Shown: positions 23,482 through 47,390 of the stretch, piece by piece
Layout of the letters: each line of letters opens with the position of its first letter
How positions within the stretch are numbered: position 1 is the stretch's first letter
From: Syntrophomonas sp.
GTDB lineage: Bacteria; Bacillota; Syntrophomonadia; Syntrophomonadales; Syntrophomonadaceae
NCBI GenBank assembly: GCA_016841245.1
Contig: JAENZN010000005.1
Coordinates: 62,001 to 126,000 of the forward strand
DNA: 64,000 nucleotides
Direction of reading: 5' to 3'
The notes under the pieces: generated by a model
Told to the model about the DNA's origin: nothing
The model's database searches: none
What the model saw: only the letters and a program-made list of their open reading frames with translations
Made by a program: the position numbers and the translations under genes

Positions 23482-23584
23482 CTCTTATCTAGAGAGGTGG
23501 AGGGAAAGGCCCGATGAAGCCCGGCAACCGCCCGTGGAGGTAAGGTGCCAATTCCTGCAGGGTAATCCTGAAAGATGAGAGGGG
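23482..23584 (+). promoter_or_regulatory. SAM-I (S-box) riboswitch
   Basis: The S-box core is present in order: CTCTTATCTAGAGAGGTGGA, GGCCCGATGAAGCCCGGCAA, GGTGCCAATTCC, then CCTGAAAGATGAGAGG. P1 pairs the opening CTCTTATC with GATGAGAG. It controls the methionine/homocysteine genes that follow: SAM binding should hold P1 and let the terminator form. Confidence 0.95.
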
Positions 23585-38071: not shown

Positions 38072-39712
38072 ATGATCTTTCGGGGTATGAAGAGATTGAA
38101 AAATATTTCTGAAAAGGATGGTAAGATAAATAGCGGGAATATTTCCGAATTGTTAAACCATGAGATTTTAACTCCCGAGCAGGTTAAGGATATACGGGTA
38201 TCATCTGTCCTGGAGGAGAATCTCCGCTTTTTACAGGACCTGCTGGGTCATAACAAAGATGTCATCATTCGTCGCATTCTTATCGGGACTTCTCCCCGTA
38301 TCCCATCGGCATTAATATATATTGAAGGTCTGGCAGACAAAGCCATTCTTAACAACAACATCATGAAATCCTTAATGATCGAGATTCCTGAGGAGAGTTG
38401 TGGATCTGACCCGCTCTATCTCCGCGAGTATTTGCTTAAGACGGCTCTGACCATTTCTAACCTAAAAAACACCCGTCAAATGAACGAAATAGCCATCAAC
38501 ATACTATCCGGGGATGTGGTCCTCCTGGTAGAAGGGGTAGATGATGCAGTCATCATCAATATTCGCGGGCACAAGGAGAAAGCGATCAGCGAGCCGGAAT
38601 CCGAGATACTGGTAAGGGGACCCCGGGAAGGCTTTACAGAAACACTGGAGACGAATATCAGCCTGATACGTCGAAAATTAAAAAGCCCCAATCTCTCTTT
38701 TGACCATATGCTTATCGGCAAAATAACCCTGACTGAAGTCTCGGTGGTATATTTAAAAGGTCTGGCTTCACCTGATCTGGTGGAAGAGGTGAAACAACGG
38801 CTGCAGCGTATTAAAATTGACGGAATACTGGAAAGCGGCTACCTGGAAGAATTTATTGAAGACAATCCCTATTCGCCTTTTCCGCAAATGCATCATACCG
38901 AACGTCCGGACCGAATCGTGGCAGGTCTCCTGGAAGGTAGAGTCGCTATAATGACGGATGGGACTCCCTTTGTACTGATAGTGCCTGTGGAAATCACATC
39001 ATTCCTAACTTCACCGGAGGATTATTACGAACGCTATTACCTGGGCACCCTTATTCTGTGGGTGAGATATATTTCATTTGGCGTATCCCTGCTGTTACCA
39101 TCCTTCTATATTGCCATTACCACCTTTCACCAGGAAATGATCCCAACCCGACTACTGATCAGCATAGCCTCATACCGGCAGGGACTGCCTTTTTCCACTC
39201 TGCTGGAAGCCCTGCTTATGGAGTTGACTTTCGAAGTTTTGAGGGAAGCAGGAACCCGCCTGCCCCGGGCGGTAGGTCAGGCGGTAAGCATTGTAGGTGC
39301 TCTGGTTATCGGCCAGGCAGCAGTTCAGGCTGGAATCGTCTCGCCCCTGATGGTGATTATAGTAGCATTTACCGGGATAGCCTCTTTTACCAATCCTTCG
39401 TATAACCTGGGGATTACTATGCGGTTTCTGCGTTTCCCGCTCATGTTTCTGGCCGGGATGCTGGGGCTGTTCGGTGTAATGTTTGGCATCGTTATGATAC
39501 ATATTCACCTGGCACAAATTCGCTCCTTCGGGCTTCCTTATCTGGCTTCGCTATCTCCCCTGCATTGGTCCGATCTTAAAGATGTACTGGTACGGGGACC
39601 ATGGTGGAGTATGGATACCCGTCCATGGGAACTCGGTGAAAGGAACCGGCGCCGCCAGATTCCGGGGTTAAAGCCGTCACCACCCAGGGCTGATAAGGCA
39701 GGGGGGAATTAG
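38072..39712 (+). CDS. Spore germinant receptor subunit A (GerA/GerKA family)
   Basis: 546 residues: a soluble N-terminal part of about 300 residues, then five membrane helices ('FGVSLLLPSFYIAITTFHQE', 'GLPFSTLLEALLMELTFEVL', 'LRFPLMFLAGMLGLFGVM'). The family blocks 'GTSPRIPSALIYIEGLADK' and 'ISFLTSPEDYYERYYLG' region are clear. Sits in the spore inner membrane and binds or relays germinants with B and C. Stop overlaps the start of the next gene. Confidence 0.94.
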   Translation: MIFRGMKRLKNISEKDGKINSGNISELLNHEILTPEQVKDIRVSSVLEENLRFLQDLLGHNKDVIIRRILIGTSPRIPSALIYIEGLADKAILNNNIMKSLMIEIPEESCGSDPLYLREYLLKTALTISNLKNTRQMNEIAINILSGDVVLLVEGVDDAVIINIRGHKEKAISEPESEILVRGPREGFTETLETNISLIRRKLKSPNLSFDHMLIGKITLTEVSVVYLKGLASPDLVEEVKQRLQRIKIDGILESGYLEEFIEDNPYSPFPQMHHTERPDRIVAGLLEGRVAIMTDGTPFVLIVPVEITSFLTSPEDYYERYYLGTLILWVRYISFGVSLLLPSFYIAITTFHQEMIPTRLLISIASYRQGLPFSTLLEALLMELTFEVLREAGTRLPRAVGQAVSIVGALVIGQAAVQAGIVSPLMVIIVAFTGIASFTNPSYNLGITMRFLRFPLMFLAGMLGLFGVMFGIVMIHIHLAQIRSFGLPYLASLSPLHWSDLKDVLVRGPWWSMDTRPWELGERNRRRQIPGLKPSPPRADKAGGN

Positions 39713-40942
39713 ATGATGATCCGTCGCATTTTCGTGACGTTCTTGATAATAATGCTCACCATATCATCGGGCTGCTGGGATCGGCGTGAACTCGATGATC
39801 TGGGCATTGTGAATGGAATTGGGATAGAATCTGCCCCCGGGGGAAAGATCCGTATAATTGCTCAAACTCTAAATACTTCGGCAATAGTCAGGGGTACAGG
39901 GGGAGGGGGCGCTGGAACCACCTTTCAAAAGGCTTACCGTAATACGGTTGCCGAAGGGAACAGCCTCCAGGACGCCATTGATAATCTAACCAAGGTTACT
40001 CCTATCCAGCGTTTTTTTTCTCACAACAGCGTAGTTATTGTCTCCGAGGAACTGGCCCGGAAACAGGGTATTAGGTCTATTATGGATTTCCTGGAGCGGA
40101 ATCCGGAACTTAGACTGGACCCGTGGCTGATTATCGGCAGGGGATCGCTGGTGAGCCTCATGGATCAACCGGGAAGAATTACACTTATACCTTCCCAGCG
40201 GATTGATAATTATATGAAAATTCATAAGATATCATCAACCTATGCACCCCTCAATGTGGGGCAATTCATTCGTTCAATACAAAGTCCCTGCTGCCAGCCA
40301 TATACCGCGGTGATAGAAACCGGGCCTAATGAGTCCCTTTCCGATGAACCGGGTCATGACCTGGCCAGTGGTGTAGTCCCAGAACCGCTTAATCAGATTA
40401 TAGTAAATGGTACGGCGGTATTCAAAGAGGATAAAATGGTGGGTTGGTTAAATGCTCCCGAGAGTCGGGGTTTGCTTTGGGTAAGGGGAGAGGTGGAGCA
40501 GGGCTACATTAATTTCTCCATACCTGGAGAGCAGGATAGATTTGCAGAGACCAGCATACTGAGATCATCGAGCAAACTTGAGCCCAGTATAAAGGACGGG
40601 CAGATTATGATAACCGCCACCATTAAAGTAGATACTTACCTGATAGAAGTGCAGGGGAATATAGATCCGGGAATAACGGAAGAATTAAAAAAACTGGAAG
40701 ACGCACAGGATGCTGAAATCAGCAAGGAAATTAAAGCAGCTTTAAAAAAGGCGCAGGGGGAGTACCATGCGGATATATTCGGTTTCGGAGCAGCAATCCA
40801 TCGCGGTTACCCCGCAGAATGGAAGCAGCTGGAAGCACAGTGGGATGAGGCTTTTCCCGGATTGCAGGTGGAAATAAAAGTTGAATCCAGCATCCGTCAT
40901 ACCTCTTTGATAAACAAACCTGCTGAGGCGGCCAGGCAGTAA
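39713..40942 (+). CDS. Spore germinant receptor lipoprotein subunit C (Ger(x)C)
   Basis: 409 residues. Lipoprotein signal with lipobox at 'ISSGCWDRRELDDLGIVNGI', the family hallmark. The rest contains the three-domain Ger(x)C fold ('SHNSVVIVSEELARKQG', 'IVNGTAVFKEDKMVGWL'). Anchored on the outer face of the spore inner membrane. Adjacent to subunit A without a gap. Confidence 0.94.
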   Translation: MMIRRIFVTFLIIMLTISSGCWDRRELDDLGIVNGIGIESAPGGKIRIIAQTLNTSAIVRGTGGGGAGTTFQKAYRNTVAEGNSLQDAIDNLTKVTPIQRFFSHNSVVIVSEELARKQGIRSIMDFLERNPELRLDPWLIIGRGSLVSLMDQPGRITLIPSQRIDNYMKIHKISSTYAPLNVGQFIRSIQSPCCQPYTAVIETGPNESLSDEPGHDLASGVVPEPLNQIIVNGTAVFKEDKMVGWLNAPESRGLLWVRGEVEQGYINFSIPGEQDRFAETSILRSSSKLEPSIKDGQIMITATIKVDTYLIEVQGNIDPGITEELKKLEDAQDAEISKEIKAALKKAQGEYHADIFGFGAAIHRGYPAEWKQLEAQWDEAFPGLQVEIKVESSIRHTSLINKPAEAARQ

Positions 40943-40965
40943 CATATGCACAGGGAGGAATCGGG

Positions 40966-41196
40966 TTGGTTATTGTGATCGCACTGGTGTTTGCAGGAAT
41001 CATAGTCTTGCAGGCCGGACCGCTGTATAAAAAGAAAATGTGGCGTGAACTAGGGGTTTTTAGCATCTTGATGCTTGTTGCAATGGTCTATGTTTATGAC
41101 TGGCTTCTGGAATGGCATCTTCCTACTGTTAAAACACTTATGGAAGTTGTATTTATACCGGTAACGGTGTTCATGGAGAACCTGCTGACCCCTTAG
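40966..41196 (+). CDS. Small two-helix membrane protein, probable germinant receptor D subunit
   Basis: 76 residues with helices at about 1-17 and 27-45 and a hydrophobic tail. TTG start after AGGGAGGAATCGGG. Germinant receptor operons often carry such a 55-80-residue D gene between the large subunits. Sequence similarity is not strong enough to claim by eye, so the call rests on size, topology and position between C and B. Confidence 0.65.
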   Translation: MVIVIALVFAGIIVLQAGPLYKKKMWRELGVFSILMLVAMVYVYDWLLEWHLPTVKTLMEVVFIPVTVFMENLLTP

Positions 41197-41224
41197 ATGA
41201 CGACTAACAGATAGACGTGCAGGG

Positions 41225-42346
41225 ATGAAAGGATTAAAAGGATTGAAACAGGAAAGTGGTATTTATAAAACCGATACATATTCTATCATGGGATTGCTGG
41301 TAAATACCGTAGGTACTACTGCCGCTTTATTTATTCCCCTTTCGGCAGTGAAAATCGCCCAACAGGATGGGTGGATGACAATGCTCATTGCCATGCTGGG
41401 CGCAGTCTATCTGGTTTACGTGGTTTACCGCCTGGGTACACTTTACAGCGATAAAATCTTTATCGAGTATCTTCCCTTGATAATAGGAAAAGCAGGAGGT
41501 AAGATACTGGGTCTGGCCTATATATTATTCTTTTTCTATTTAACATCGTCCGTGATTCGAGAAGCGGTCGCCCTGTTTTTTGGAACCGGTGTCTTCAAGA
41601 TTACTCCAGAATTTGTTATCCCGCTGTTCTTGATTATAGCCACAACCTATGCGGTTGTTTTGGGATTTGAAGTCATTTGCCGGGTGTTAAGTATCTACTG
41701 GCTGGTGATAAGCACCACACTTATCGTTTTTTACCTTCTGGTATTTCCATATATGGATTTCGCTGCTTTGCTTCCGGTGGGAGAAGCGAGTATCTTAACC
41801 TTGCTAAAAAGCGCCATGATCCCGCAGGCCTATATGGGGGAGCTATTTATACTGGCCATGCTTTCCCCATATATCAGAACAGCCCGAACAGTTCTTATCG
41901 CCGGCAATATCAGCACTGTAATAATTATCTGTCATATGACGGTTATAACAATCTCCATGGTAACCATCCTGGGAGTGGATACTCCTGCTCGTTCTCTTTA
42001 TGCTCCGTTTTTTCTGGCCGATATTATCCAGCCCATCGGTATCAAGGCATTGCTTGTTTCTATTTGGATGCTGGCGTTATGGGGAAAAATCGTAGTTTTT
42101 CAGTTTATTGTAACTGATGGGATATCAAAATATTTCAACCTGAAACAATATCAAAGCATAATAATCCCGGTTGCCATCCTTCTTCTGGTATTCTCCTTTA
42201 CTTTTTATCAAAACAACACCGATGTACTGGAATCGATCCCCCGGACTTTCCCCGGAGTGGCACTGTTCTTTGAGTATTTAATCCCTACTTTATTATTGAT
42301 CATTGCTCTAATTAGATCAAAGATCGGGGCATCCTCATCGCAGTGA
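41225..42346 (+). CDS. Spore germinant receptor permease subunit B (GerB family)
   Basis: 373 residues, ten helices of the APC-type endospore germination permease family: 'TYSIMGLLVNTVGTTAALF', 'VIREAVALFFGTGVFKITP', 'PQAYMGELFILAMLSPY'. Thought to hold the germinant pocket. Ribosome site for the ATG is weak (CAGGG directly ahead), so coupling to the D gene is possible. Confidence 0.93.
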   Translation: MKGLKGLKQESGIYKTDTYSIMGLLVNTVGTTAALFIPLSAVKIAQQDGWMTMLIAMLGAVYLVYVVYRLGTLYSDKIFIEYLPLIIGKAGGKILGLAYILFFFYLTSSVIREAVALFFGTGVFKITPEFVIPLFLIIATTYAVVLGFEVICRVLSIYWLVISTTLIVFYLLVFPYMDFAALLPVGEASILTLLKSAMIPQAYMGELFILAMLSPYIRTARTVLIAGNISTVIIICHMTVITISMVTILGVDTPARSLYAPFFLADIIQPIGIKALLVSIWMLALWGKIVVFQFIVTDGISKYFNLKQYQSIIIPVAILLLVFSFTFYQNNTDVLESIPRTFPGVALFFEYLIPTLLLIIALIRSKIGASSSQ

Positions 42347-42560: not shown

Positions 42561-43055
42561 TTGAAGAAAGCGGCACTGAGTCTACTGCTGTCTTTTGTTT
42601 TAGCGGCAAGCATGTATGGTGGATATTCTTTTGCTCAGACAGATGACGCAATTCAACCAGAAGCCAAGCTGGAAATGAAAGCTGAAGAGATGGGTATCAG
42701 TGTTGATGAACTAAAGGCTCAATGCAAAGCTGAGCGGCAGGAAAAGCTGGAACAGAGAGCCAAGGAGATGGGCATTACCGTTGATGAACTGAAGGCCCAA
42801 ATGAAAGCTGAGCGGAAAGAAAGGCTGGAACAGAAAGCCAAAGAGATGGGCATCACTGTTGATGAACTGAAGGCCCAAATGAAAGCTGAGCGGCAGGAGA
42901 GACTGGAACAGAGAGCCAAAGAGATGGGCATCACCGTTGATGAACTGAAGGCTAAAATGAAAGCTGAGCGGCAGGAAAGATTAGAACAAAAAGCCAAAGA
43001 GATGGGCATTACCGTTGATGAACTGAAGGCTAAAATGAAAGCCAAACATGAGTAA
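42561..43055 (+). CDS. Secreted protein of 26-residue tandem repeats
   Basis: 164 residues. Signal peptide MKKAALSLLLSFVLAASMYG..., predicted cut near 'SFA-QTDD'. Then five units of consensus 'KEMGITVDELKAQMKAERQE' plus 'RLEQRA', 26 residues each, the last one cut short ('KMKAKHE'). Each unit is a charged amphipathic helix; 'MGITVDELKA' recalls the DUF2680-like helices of Firmicute secreted proteins. TTG start after AAAGGAGGTGAAAAT, an excellent site. Function unknown; likely extracytoplasmic. Minus-strand frames over it are artefacts of the repeats. Confidence 0.75.
   Translation: MKKAALSLLLSFVLAASMYGGYSFAQTDDAIQPEAKLEMKAEEMGISVDELKAQCKAERQEKLEQRAKEMGITVDELKAQMKAERKERLEQKAKEMGITVDELKAQMKAERQERLEQRAKEMGITVDELKAKMKAERQERLEQKAKEMGITVDELKAKMKAKHE
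42693..43043 (+). repeat. 78-bp tandem repeat array inside the secreted protein gene
   Basis: The Gly codon of 'MGI' recurs at 42693, 42771, 42849, 42927 and 43005, a strict 78-base period. Units 2 to 5 are nearly identical in DNA, unit 1 more diverged, pointing to recent expansion or gene conversion. Confidence 0.9.
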
Positions 43056-43487: not shown

Positions 43488-43517
43488 TTGCCACTTTATA
43501 TGGCCAGGGTATATAAT
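43488..43517 (+). promoter_or_regulatory. Promoter of the candidate structured RNA
   Basis: TTGCCA, 18-base spacer, TATAAT. The nearest downstream frame has no ribosome site. Confidence 0.7.
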
Positions 43518-43521
43518 AAAA

Positions 43522-43738
43522 ATGCAAGCTGATAACCATATGGTTAATTTGTCCCGCGGAGAAGTCTGCTGGTCATCTGAGTTCAGTGGTGGTCTATTGG
43601 CTAAGGGGTATGCATTATCTTTGATGGTGTACAAAAACGATGAAACAGCAATGTGCCAGTTAGTGTACACGTGTCTCTCAGCTTGCACCCTATCTAGATA
43701 TTAAAAGACGCAGTCCGGGGGACGGTGTCTTTTTTTAT
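43522..43738 (+). ncRNA. Candidate structured small RNA, about 210 nt (6S-like?)
   Basis: A good promoter lies just upstream, and an intrinsic terminator ends it (43705-43738: AGACGCAGTCC/GGACGGTGTCT, then TTTTTTTAT). The 5' TGCAAGCTGA (43523-43532) is perfectly complementary to TCAGCTTGCA (43678-43687), closing a long rod. Inside are AACCATATGGTT and GTGTAC/GTACAC pairings. Size, closing helix and own terminator recall 6S RNA, but I cannot confirm that family. A 60-codon frame across it lacks a ribosome site. Confidence 0.5.
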
Positions 43739-44063
43739 ATACTTTATGAAAGCGTATGGATGATTCAATCGTTATATTAAATAAGAAAACAGCTTGGGGA
43801 TGAAGTCTTAAGGTTAGCGCAGGGGTTAAGGCGATTCGAAGAGCGGGGATTTAACTTTTCTAATCACTAAGCGCAAGACCACTCAGCTAACTTACATTTA
43901 AGAGCTAAGACCGGCCTCAAGCTTTATTAAGCCTTCAGCCCCCCTCAGTCATTTTTCATGAGTGATTGTGGCCGCGGCCATGGGGGGTTAAGATGGAACA
44001 AGCTTCCTGTGATAATAAGAATAATCCTTAATAGACTACTGGTTAATAAGCCTGGGGAGGGAT
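43739..44063. other. Spacer without recognised gene
   Basis: Contains a GC-rich inverted stretch GGCCGCGGCC near 43970. 'GGAGGGATATG' at its end is the ribosome site of the next gene. Confidence 0.35.
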
Positions 44064-45683
44064 ATGATGTCGAAGAGCAATTATGATCTGCTGCTGCAGA
44101 TAGACGAAATTTTATTGAACAAATCACTGGCCGCCCTGTATTACTCTGGTTTCCTGGCCCTGGAGGGAGAATACAGTTTTGTAGAAGGCATTCCCGCAAG
44201 CCTGCATGATTTCACCAAATTTTCTTATAAGATCCGCATGAAAAATGAACCTTTGATAGACTTAAGAGGAAGAGATCAGGTTTATATCAAGTTCATGGTG
44301 GAGTTAAAACTTGTTGTCCTGACCGGGATTGTATTGGAATTTGATGCCTCTTTCTATGCTTACACCAAAATTGTATTTGATGCGATTAACAGGAAAATGA
44401 TCTTCGATTTAAGCAATGCCAGGATCACCGACTTATATATCAATGATACCTATCGCTTTCATAAAAAATTCATAGATAATATCAATGAAGTGCTGGCAGT
44501 CTTATTGTCAGCCTATCTGACCGAAGATCGCCAAACCATTGAAATCCCCCTGATCCTTCAACAGTTGGAACTTCCTATGATGCCTGCCGGCAATGCTTAC
44601 GAATTGCCAGTCAGAATGGGGGATGTATTAATCTATAATAATCGCCTGCTGATTATGGGGATCAACTTTTTTAACGAGGCTGCCGAGGACATATCTGATA
44701 TGCAGGATTTAAGCGGCGGCAATGAGCTATATATCAACTTAAAAGAGCAAACCCTGAAAGAGGTTTTTGATTTCTGGTGGGATAACACCGAATATGAAAA
44801 ATGTGAAGACTTTTCCGGAAGTTTTCCCATCAACAGCGATTCCTGGTGGGAAAAGAGCGTTGATATCCTTGCCCGGCTGGTCAGCCTGGGATTTATTGAA
44901 ACAAAAACCAGTTACGATAATCTGTTATGTAATTATGATGGTCTGGTCCAAGTGCTGGAAAAGCCTGACTTCGAGTTCGGTGAGGGGAACAAAGTACTTC
45001 TCAATTCGCTGAAGATCCAGGTTCGGTTTAAAGCATCGTTCACCGCTGAGGTGATCAAGGATATTAAACTTGATACCAGTTCTTTCATCCCCGATCGGCT
45101 TACCCCCTGGGAGGATGATAAGCTGTTGAAACATCGGGAGGAATCCAAAGAGATATTAAATCTGGAGCAAGAGTTGGAGCTGTACATATCCCAGGCAGAG
45201 GGAATCATCAAGCTGAATGAGAACAGTAATCTGGTGATAGAAATTGTTAAAGCCGATATTAATATCGAAATGGGGGATAAGTGGTACCATAATCTGTCCG
45301 AAAAGGCTGTTAATTATATAATAGACCTGCTGGAGCAGAAGGTTCTGGAAAAAATCCCGGATCTGGTCATTTCCCCCAACCTGCTTTTATCCCGGCAGGA
45401 ATTAGCAGGCTATACCATGCAGGTCTCCACCCATTACATCTCTTTTGATAATGATGAACTGGCCCTGACTTTGAATATAGGTATAAACGAACTTATGAGC
45501 AAGGCGGTACCGGTTCCTATGTATATCGCCAACCAACGCACTAAAAAGATTCATAGCTTTGACTGCCCATCTATTGAAGATATCGAGATGGAAAACCGAC
45601 TCGGTTTTTATGTGCTTTATGAAGCATTGAAAGAGGGTTACTCGGCCTGCCAGGCGTGCATCGGCGCCAGCAAGCTGCTTTAA
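44064..45683 (+). CDS. Large paralogous protein 1, TULIP/P47-like with C-terminal Ada-like metal motif
   Basis: 539 residues, no signal peptide or membrane helix. Starts 'SNYDLLLQIDEILLNKSLAA LYYSGF'-like (split here), a pattern seen in clostridial P47/OrfX-type lipid-binding TULIP proteins, and is otherwise beta-rich with alternating polar and hydrophobic residues. The last 50 residues read 'KIHSFDCPS' ... 'GYSACQACIG': H-x3-C and C-x2-C at the spacing of the Ada/nuclease tail metal site. Strong ribosome site GGGGAGGG. 18 bases from its paralogue. TULIP assignment is inference; the tail motif is seen directly. Confidence 0.55.
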   Translation: MMSKSNYDLLLQIDEILLNKSLAALYYSGFLALEGEYSFVEGIPASLHDFTKFSYKIRMKNEPLIDLRGRDQVYIKFMVELKLVVLTGIVLEFDASFYAYTKIVFDAINRKMIFDLSNARITDLYINDTYRFHKKFIDNINEVLAVLLSAYLTEDRQTIEIPLILQQLELPMMPAGNAYELPVRMGDVLIYNNRLLIMGINFFNEAAEDISDMQDLSGGNELYINLKEQTLKEVFDFWWDNTEYEKCEDFSGSFPINSDSWWEKSVDILARLVSLGFIETKTSYDNLLCNYDGLVQVLEKPDFEFGEGNKVLLNSLKIQVRFKASFTAEVIKDIKLDTSSFIPDRLTPWEDDKLLKHREESKEILNLEQELELYISQAEGIIKLNENSNLVIEIVKADINIEMGDKWYHNLSEKAVNYIIDLLEQKVLEKIPDLVISPNLLLSRQELAGYTMQVSTHYISFDNDELALTLNIGINELMSKAVPVPMYIANQRTKKIHSFDCPSIEDIEMENRLGFYVLYEALKEGYSACQACIGASKLL

Positions 45684-45701
45684 AGGGGAGGAGAGGAGAA
45701 C

Positions 45702-47390
45702 ATGAAATCAGCCGGTTACGATATAGTAGTCTTATTGAATGAAAAATTTTTGAATCAAGTCACCGGAGCTTTATTCTACAATGGTTTTCTGAGAATCAAT
45801 GGCTCTGTAAAATTATACGAGGAGCTGGACCAGGAAAGCCTGGATAAGATACCGGAGAGCTTGTATCGCTTTATGCTCATCAATTACCGGATGAAGCTGA
45901 ATTATGAACCTTCCATTGACTTCCTTCCCCCGGTCAGTCCGGATGATCCTGCCCGAGTAAGGATACATACTGCCCTGCGGGTTTATTTCTGGCTCTGGGA
46001 CGGACTGGAAATTAAATTTGATGCCAATGTGTCCCTGGTAGCAGGAGTGGAAATAGATAGCAAGACCAATCAGATGATGATAGATTTTGCTCATTCCGAT
46101 ATCGAGGCACTGGCCGTGAAATACCGGTATAGTATGGAGCAAACCGTCACCTTGAAGCTGGACCAGATTATGGAAAATGCGGTTCGGGCCTATCTGAGTG
46201 ACCAGAACAATTGTTTCAGCTTCAACCTGCCCAGCATCAACCCGCTGCTTCCATATATGGATGATATACCGGAGAATTACCTGCCCCTGAGTGTGCGTTC
46301 CATAAAAACCCTGGATGCTACCACTTTGGCTATGGCTGTCAATGTCCAAATCGATGACTATGAGGGCGGAGACGAACAGCAGTTAAGCAACTTCGCCCGC
46401 AACTGCAGTGCCGCAGTAGCCGTTTCCGAGATTGCCATGTATAAGGTTTATGACTTTTTCTGGGAAAGAACCAACGGGGACAAGTGTTTCAAATTCAAAA
46501 AAAGCTTCGAGAGTGAGACTCTAAATGACGTGGTGAATGTGATCGGCAAAGTGGTAGATATTACCCAGCGCATAGTCACAGAAATCGCTACCCTGGGTTT
46601 TGTGGAAACTCACTTTGAGATGAAGGGTATGAGGTTTGAAGTAGGTGCGGATGTTAAACTTTTGAGCAAACCGGAATTCGATCTGATGCCGGACAACAAA
46701 GTGAAAATAAAGAAGCTAAATACCAATATCATTTTCAGCCTTAAAGTGTTTTTGGATGTTGAATATTCGGTGGAGATCGATCCAACCGGTTGGTTCCCTG
46801 ATATAATACCGGATTACGAAGTAGTGAATGACCGGGTGGAGGTAAAGATCTTTGAAATGCATGTGCCGTTCTTCAATATGCAGTTGAAAAAAGGTGTTGG
46901 TAAGATAGTCCTGGATGATGCCACCAATACTTTGCAGATCAAAATCGAACAGCTGGATCTGTACTGGGATTTCATAGCTTTCACCGACTGCCCGTTTCTG
47001 AATTTTCCGGAATGGCTCTTTAATAAGATACTGGATCTGTGTGAATCAAGCATAGCCGATGCAATTCCCCCGATAGTTGTGACTCCATCTTTCACGGTGG
47101 ACGTTCCTCTGGTGGACTGGGATCTTAAAATTGAAGGCAAAAAGCTGACCATCGATCCTGATGAAGTGACTCTGGCAGCTGATATATACTTTGCAGAACT
47201 AAAAAAGGATATTCCTCATGTGCCCAAGTACATAGTCAATATTAATAATAGGGAGATACACAAGATAGGCTGCGATTCACTGATGGATACCTATGAAGAG
47301 CACCAGCGCGGTTATCATCTCTTAAATGATGCGGTAAACCGGGGCTATGACGGATGTAAACGTTGCCTGCCCGCTTATCATACTAAGTAA
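45702..47390 (+). CDS. Large paralogous protein 2, TULIP/P47-like with C-terminal Ada-like metal motif
   Basis: 562 residues, same layout as its neighbour: 'GYDIVVLLNEKFLNQVTGAL' plus 'FYNGFL' at the N-terminus, 'AVSEIAMYKVYDFFWE' matching 'LKEVFDFWWDNTEYEKC' in paralogue 1, 'TLGFVETHFE' matching 'SLGFIETKTS', and the tail 'EIHKIGCDS' ... 'GYDGCKRCLP'. Identity between the two is low overall, so the duplication is old. GGGGAGGAGAGG precedes the ATG. The pair is probably co-transcribed and may form a heteromer. Function unknown; lipid binding is only suggested by the fold guess. Confidence 0.55.
   Translation: MKSAGYDIVVLLNEKFLNQVTGALFYNGFLRINGSVKLYEELDQESLDKIPESLYRFMLINYRMKLNYEPSIDFLPPVSPDDPARVRIHTALRVYFWLWDGLEIKFDANVSLVAGVEIDSKTNQMMIDFAHSDIEALAVKYRYSMEQTVTLKLDQIMENAVRAYLSDQNNCFSFNLPSINPLLPYMDDIPENYLPLSVRSIKTLDATTLAMAVNVQIDDYEGGDEQQLSNFARNCSAAVAVSEIAMYKVYDFFWERTNGDKCFKFKKSFESETLNDVVNVIGKVVDITQRIVTEIATLGFVETHFEMKGMRFEVGADVKLLSKPEFDLMPDNKVKIKKLNTNIIFSLKVFLDVEYSVEIDPTGWFPDIIPDYEVVNDRVEVKIFEMHVPFFNMQLKKGVGKIVLDDATNTLQIKIEQLDLYWDFIAFTDCPFLNFPEWLFNKILDLCESSIADAIPPIVVTPSFTVDVPLVDWDLKIEGKKLTIDPDEVTLAADIYFAELKKDIPHVPKYIVNINNREIHKIGCDSLMDTYEEHQRGYHLLNDAVNRGYDGCKRCLPAYHTK

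Follow-up and report, generated by a model that had tools for sequence, protein, structure and literature searches.

Two adjacent genes of Syntrophomonas sp., here called P1 and P2, encode members of a new protein family restricted to this genus. They are paralogues, paired in all four species in which they occur, evolving under selection and ending in a tail with conserved metal ligands; judging from structural models, their body very probably has a TULIP fold, the two-barrel architecture of lipid carriers such as human BPI and of clostridial P47, in which case they would represent an additional bacterial TULIP family. To our knowledge, few such families are known in bacteria, and we know of none with a metal-site tail, a twin operon or a tie to a structured RNA. 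The RNA found upstream of the pair is also new, being described by no library searched. The best explanation of the locus as a whole, which we hold with moderate confidence, is a two-gene operon, its expression linked to a structured leader RNA or small RNA, for lineage-specific pseudodimeric TULIP proteins that carry hydrophobic ligands and end in a zinc-stabilised tail. Features of the locus are reported in Table 1, where positions refer to the window, i.e. the whole 64,000-nucleotide stretch of DNA analysed.

Table 1. Features of the P1-P2 locus, with positions in the window
Feature	Position	Strand	Description
Sigma-70 promoter of the RNA, TTGCCA-18-TATAAT	43488-43517	+	11/12 consensus
Conserved RNA domain, predicted structured, ~167 nt	43524-43690	+	9-bp closing stem GCAAGCUGA/UCAGCUUGC, internal hairpins
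Intrinsic terminator, GACGCAGTCC/GGACGGTGTC then T7	43704-43736	+	stem predicted in all four species
P1	44064-45683	+	ORF, 539 aa; predicted pseudodimeric TULIP protein with Zn-site tail
P1 tail, Ada-type metal-site domain, H497-x3-C501...C529-x2-C532	45509-45677	+	invariant ligands; profile matches to Ada_Zn_binding-tailed proteins
P2	45702-47390	+	ORF, 562 aa; P1 paralogue; predicted pseudodimeric TULIP protein with Zn-site tail
P2 tail, H520-x3-C524...C552-x2-C555	47217-47378	+	invariant in all copies; weak direct match to Pfam PF02805 (E 0.12)

The P1-P2 gene pair

A previous reading of this region, made from the sequence only, had proposed two tandem genes for proteins of 539 and 562 residues, and both coordinates and lengths proved exact. 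The genes lie on one strand, separated by 18 bases, and each is preceded by a strong ribosome site. Similarity between the two proteins had been described in terms of shared blocks at low identity: identity is indeed low, but BLASTP aligns the whole length (139 identical residues out of 564, 25% end to end, E 7e-52). Within their own genome the two proteins match each other at E 9.9e-46 and are the sole copies, with no third one. Both are acidic (pI 4.6-4.8) and soluble, and no hydrophobic segment resembling a signal peptide was seen at their N-termini. Nothing significant was found by searching Pfam, NCBIfam, PHROGs, PADLOC and the PDB sequences.

Distribution was evaluated in 63 genomes of the order and 398 of the phylum. 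The tandem pair is present in three further genomes, recorded as Syntrophomonas or Syntrophomonadaceae; homologues of the body are confined to four of the five genomes of the genus, for a total of eight sequences, the near-complete genome G019, within the genus, being without the pair. A body-only profile, searched against the 398 phylum genomes, produced outside the genus just chance-level matches of 40-70 residues. No relative of either the proteins or the upstream RNA was found in plasmid, phage and IMG/VR collections, and there is therefore no sign of a mobile element. Both genes are under strong purifying selection in the four species, with dN/dS values of 0.05-0.13, and are therefore functional.

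A predicted structured RNA upstream of P1

The region preceding P1 contains a putative RNA, missed in the sequence-only reading, framed by a promoter and an intrinsic terminator and predicted to fold into a multi-branched structure with a perfect 9-bp closing stem (z -3.1). In the three relatives (loci L003, L004 and L005) the promoter lies at the same place and matches 10-12 of the 12 consensus positions, including one perfect TTGACA-17-TATAAT, and the 5' end of the RNA falls 6-7 nt past it in all four species (6 nt in the window). The RNA domain is 87-97% identical to its relatives, while the flanks do not align. Compared with the most distant relative, positions 43524-43736 are 87% identical, against 71% for P1 and 79% for P2 DNA, whose synonymous sites are near saturation: the RNA region is more conserved than the genes. 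Covariation amounts to one compensatory pair in four close sequences, a sample from which a proof of structure is beyond reach.

With both BLAST and a covariance model, every one of the four genomes carrying the pair yielded a single copy of the RNA, always upstream of the pair, and the remaining 59 genomes of the order, G019 included, yielded none; matches of 16-17 bits to the RNA model in G025, G005 and G007 were judged due to chance. The upstream region matched no known family in Rfam (best E 2). Identity with 6S RNA was rejected, the 6S RNA of this genome being found elsewhere. Similarly rejected as a gene was an ORF of 51-54 aa contained within the RNA in three species: it is frame-shifted in L005, lacks a ribosome site and, by inspection, shows non-synonymous changes, which argues against a coding function.

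Most simply, the RNA would be a terminating leader, limiting read-through into P1-P2, because the three relatives have no other sigma-70-like promoter between its terminator and P1; we infer an action in cis on the pair. The linked RNA would provide a direct genetic handle on P1/P2 regulation. It is possible, if doubtful, that the RNA is instead an independent small RNA, with P1-P2 transcribed from a promoter of their own and the two lying side by side for some other reason, such as a joint RNP or mutual regulation. Its near-consensus promoter and strong terminator in all species, and its exact co-occurrence with the pair, are consistent with this possibility; furthermore, the terminator and the aptamer-like part fold independently of each other and show no sign of an antiterminator pairing, which favours a free small RNA over a switch. 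The lack of a sigma-70-like promoter before P1 in three of the four species speaks against it, however, as do the acidic nature of both proteins and the complementarity of the RNA to the start regions of P1 and P2, no better than that of shuffled sequences save for a nominal 4/100 for one copy. While a terminating leader is our preferred reading, a more ambitious one may also be formulated, in which RNA, P1 and P2 make up one functional unit, either a lineage-specific ribonucleoprotein or an RNA-controlled lipid-handling system, the 167-nt RNA sensing or working with the twin zinc-tailed TULIPs in a syntrophic fatty-acid degrader; this we regard as quite improbable.

Between terminator and P1, window and L004 share an extra segment of 170-190 nt (43890-44060 in the window), which is missing in L003 and L005. 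Inverted repeats rich in GC (GGCCGCGGCC) occur in it, and in the window it also includes one weak site resembling a promoter, a point against the leader reading.

Metal-site tail and predicted fold of the body

Both proteins end with the H-x3-C and C-x2-C motifs noticed in the sequence-only reading, but the gap between them is of 27 residues, not about 35. Loss of the tail Cys and His in homologues, which that reading had named as contrary evidence, was not seen: the four ligands (H, C, C, C) are invariant in all eight copies from the four species. By comparison of substitutions in P1/P2, the tail is also less changed than the body. Outside the genus the family profile finds the tail alone, a stretch of some 50 residues matched at E 1e-7 to 1e-3 and located C-terminally in many proteins, including predicted secreted thermonucleases (SNase), NucA-type nucleases and metallo-beta-lactamase hydrolases. 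Three tail-matched proteins were scanned, and all of them contain the Pfam Ada_Zn_binding domain, one below the Pfam cut-off. Compared directly with this family (PF02805), the P2 tail scores 12.9 bits, below the threshold of 23, and the P1 tail gives no match, so homology is indirect, through profile matches to PF02805-bearing tails (E 1e-7 to 1e-4). The proposed assignment to the Ada or nuclease-tail type of metal site is borne out by this statistical relationship and by the conserved ligands and, on the strength of these profile comparisons, the motif is more than chance.

The tail is found on many proteins and is therefore a borrowed, widespread metal-site domain: the unusual feature is the host protein, not the tail. 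Compared with the Ada_Zn_binding domain that ends secreted SNase, NucA and metallo-beta-lactamase proteins, the P1/P2 tails have the same C-terminal location, H-x3-C ... C-x2-C motif and layout YI(G/A)N...H...C...GY..C..C, but are divergent and without the usual final C-x2-C-x-P. Unlike P1/P2, those hosts mostly feature a signal or lipoprotein leader and a nuclease or hydrolase domain.

AlphaFold2 models of P1 and P2 were built from the alignment of the eight sequences. Because just eight exist, confidence is low (mean pLDDT 55.5 for P1 and 47.2 for P2, pTM 0.35), the N-terminal module being best predicted, with means of 10-residue blocks mostly of 55-80. A helix together with long antiparallel strands occurs twice in the models, in keeping with the TULIP hallmark of a helix enclosed by a long, twisted antiparallel sheet that makes up a tube. 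For each of the two models separately, the significant matches are to TULIP folds and hardly anything else, the alignments spanning two TULIP modules. The P2 model matches E. coli YceB (Z 12.4, 157 aligned residues, 2.9 A), BPI (Z 9.3) and P47 (Z 8.1); by Foldseek, it matches LBP (E 1.4e-9), BPI (E 8.9e-9) and P47 (E 5.8e-7), the whole range of LBP, BPI, P47, CETP and OrfX3 extending from E 1.4e-9 to 6e-5, with prob 0.98-1.00 over some 460-565 columns. The P1 model matches YceB (Z 12.6), P47 (Z 11.4, 265 residues aligned over 1-442) and BPI (Z 10.8), as well as, by Foldseek, CETP (E 5e-8) and BPI (E 8e-8). SPLUNC1, OrfX2 and OrfX3 are also found among the fold matches across the two proteins. 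As a negative control, the P1 model was compared with a viral structure library, with no match at E <= 0.001.

A TULIP-like fold had been guessed from the sequence, and an unrelated predicted fold named as its refutation; two separate models now support the guess, structure comparison having returned TULIPs in both cases. Whole-model TM-scores are just 0.15-0.25, and the rmsd over both modules is high, 17-21 A, so the inter-domain arrangement is not predicted; within the models, most confidence attaches to the N-terminal module, and less to the second one. The two modules do not align with each other as sequence profiles, and no sequence link of P1/P2 to any TULIP family was found.

Known TULIP systems, proposed role and neighbourhood

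A systematic survey lists P47/OrfX2, YceB/DUF1439, DUF4403, DUF2140 and DUF2993 as bacterial TULIP families (PMC6791001); none of the last four, as Pfam families, matched P1 or P2. YceB, the best single-module match (Z 12.4-12.6), is a single-module lipoprotein, unlike P1/P2. BPI, LBP and CETP, pseudodimeric like the P1/P2 models and giving the best Foldseek E-values over the full body, are in contrast eukaryotic, secreted and devoid of a zinc tail, and show no sequence similarity to P1/P2. In the models, clostridial P47 is by fold among the closest bacterial two-module relatives: P47, OrfX3 and OrfX2 (PF06597) feature, like P1/P2, two TULIP-like modules per chain and several paralogues per cluster. 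P1/P2 differ from them in having no Pfam or profile sequence match, an extra Zn-site tail and a linked RNA, and in that the neighbours seen include neither toxin nor NTNH genes. The resemblance to P47/OrfX suggested by the sequence-only reading therefore stands as to fold, not as to membership of the sequence family: PF06597 did not match P1, P2 or their relatives at E <= 10, nor was the family found in their own genome (G000), and hhalign of the P1/P2 profile against a P47-family protein of G029 gave a probability of 0.1%, with weak power due to thin profiles. This last protein (L053:8957-10702), the only PF06597 member found in the same bacterial family (Syntrophomonadaceae), is a genuine one with an extra N-terminal part; its gene adjoins an ABC/MacB-type exporter, with no evident toxin beside it.

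In each of our proteins, two tubular lipid-binding modules, at approximately residues 5-220 and 240-470, would precede a small zinc-site domain of the Ada type. It is established that TULIP proteins keep hydrophobic molecules in their tube (PMC5507252, PMC13030710), and the tubes of P1/P2 would most likely bind a ligand of this nature, for example a membrane lipid or a long-chain fatty acid. The twin gene arrangement suggests a hetero-complex, and the two proteins, presumably cytoplasmic, may work as a pair, either within such a complex or by a two-step hand-off, the putative zinc tail stabilising the C-terminus or mediating contacts; expression would be tied to the conserved, structured RNA with which the transcription unit begins. 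The anaerobic genus Syntrophomonas is known to grow on fatty acids, and the most economical role for P1/P2 would therefore be to deal with long-chain fatty acids or lipids within the cell. Should they indeed act as intracellular lipid carriers, they would be an example of the BPI/P47 type of carrier outside toxin clusters, in bacteria living on fatty acids. The sequence-only reading had offered cytoplasmic lipid carriers or scaffold pairs as possible roles, and such a role is plausible. MaoC-family genes (fatty-acid type hydratases) adjoin the locus in three of the four genomes but are missing at this place in the window, so the fatty-acid link is only suggestive; they encode a MaoC-like dehydratase, divergently oriented just upstream of the RNA (L003:5018-5434, L004:5087-5524 and L005:5327-5743, all on the minus strand).

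Alternatively, P1 and P2 might be TULIP-fold scaffolds without lipid transport, involved in protein-protein assembly as OrfX/P47 are in toxin complexes, with the zinc tail docking a partner. In favour of this, OrfX1-OrfX3 and NTNH-OrfX2 do form protein complexes (PMC13030710), the pseudodimeric bacterial proteins closest to ours in fold are P47/OrfX, and P1 and P2, both acidic and soluble, are always found together. We nevertheless consider this rather unlikely, as a conserved toxin gene or obvious partner gene beside the pair is lacking in the four genomes, and no P47/OrfX-type toxin gene was found among the neighbours surveyed in them; the neighbours, which include spore germination, aminotransferase, ABC transporter, MaoC and homoserine/aspartate genes, differ between species. 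It is very unlikely that the low confidence of the models has produced spurious fold matches and that the body has some other beta-rich fold: pLDDT, pTM and whole-model TM-scores are low, but the best-predicted part, the N-terminal module, reaches Z ~12.5 in both proteins, and the top matches are all TULIPs, from unrelated sequence families.

Directly upstream of the locus, at 38072-42346 of the window, lie spore-germination genes of the GerA, GerAC and Spore_permease families; such genes are found near the pair also in L003, and are absent near it in L004 and L005. They are followed, at 42561-43055, by a gene for a secreted repeat protein, made up of Lys/Glu-rich units of about 24 residues (AKEMGITVDELKAQMKAER...), which matches Pfam as low-complexity noise alone. 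L003 and L004 also encode a protein of this kind upstream of the locus, the number of repeats being different. Farther away, at 23482-23581, the window contains a SAM riboswitch (S box), recognized with a score of 92.5 bits.
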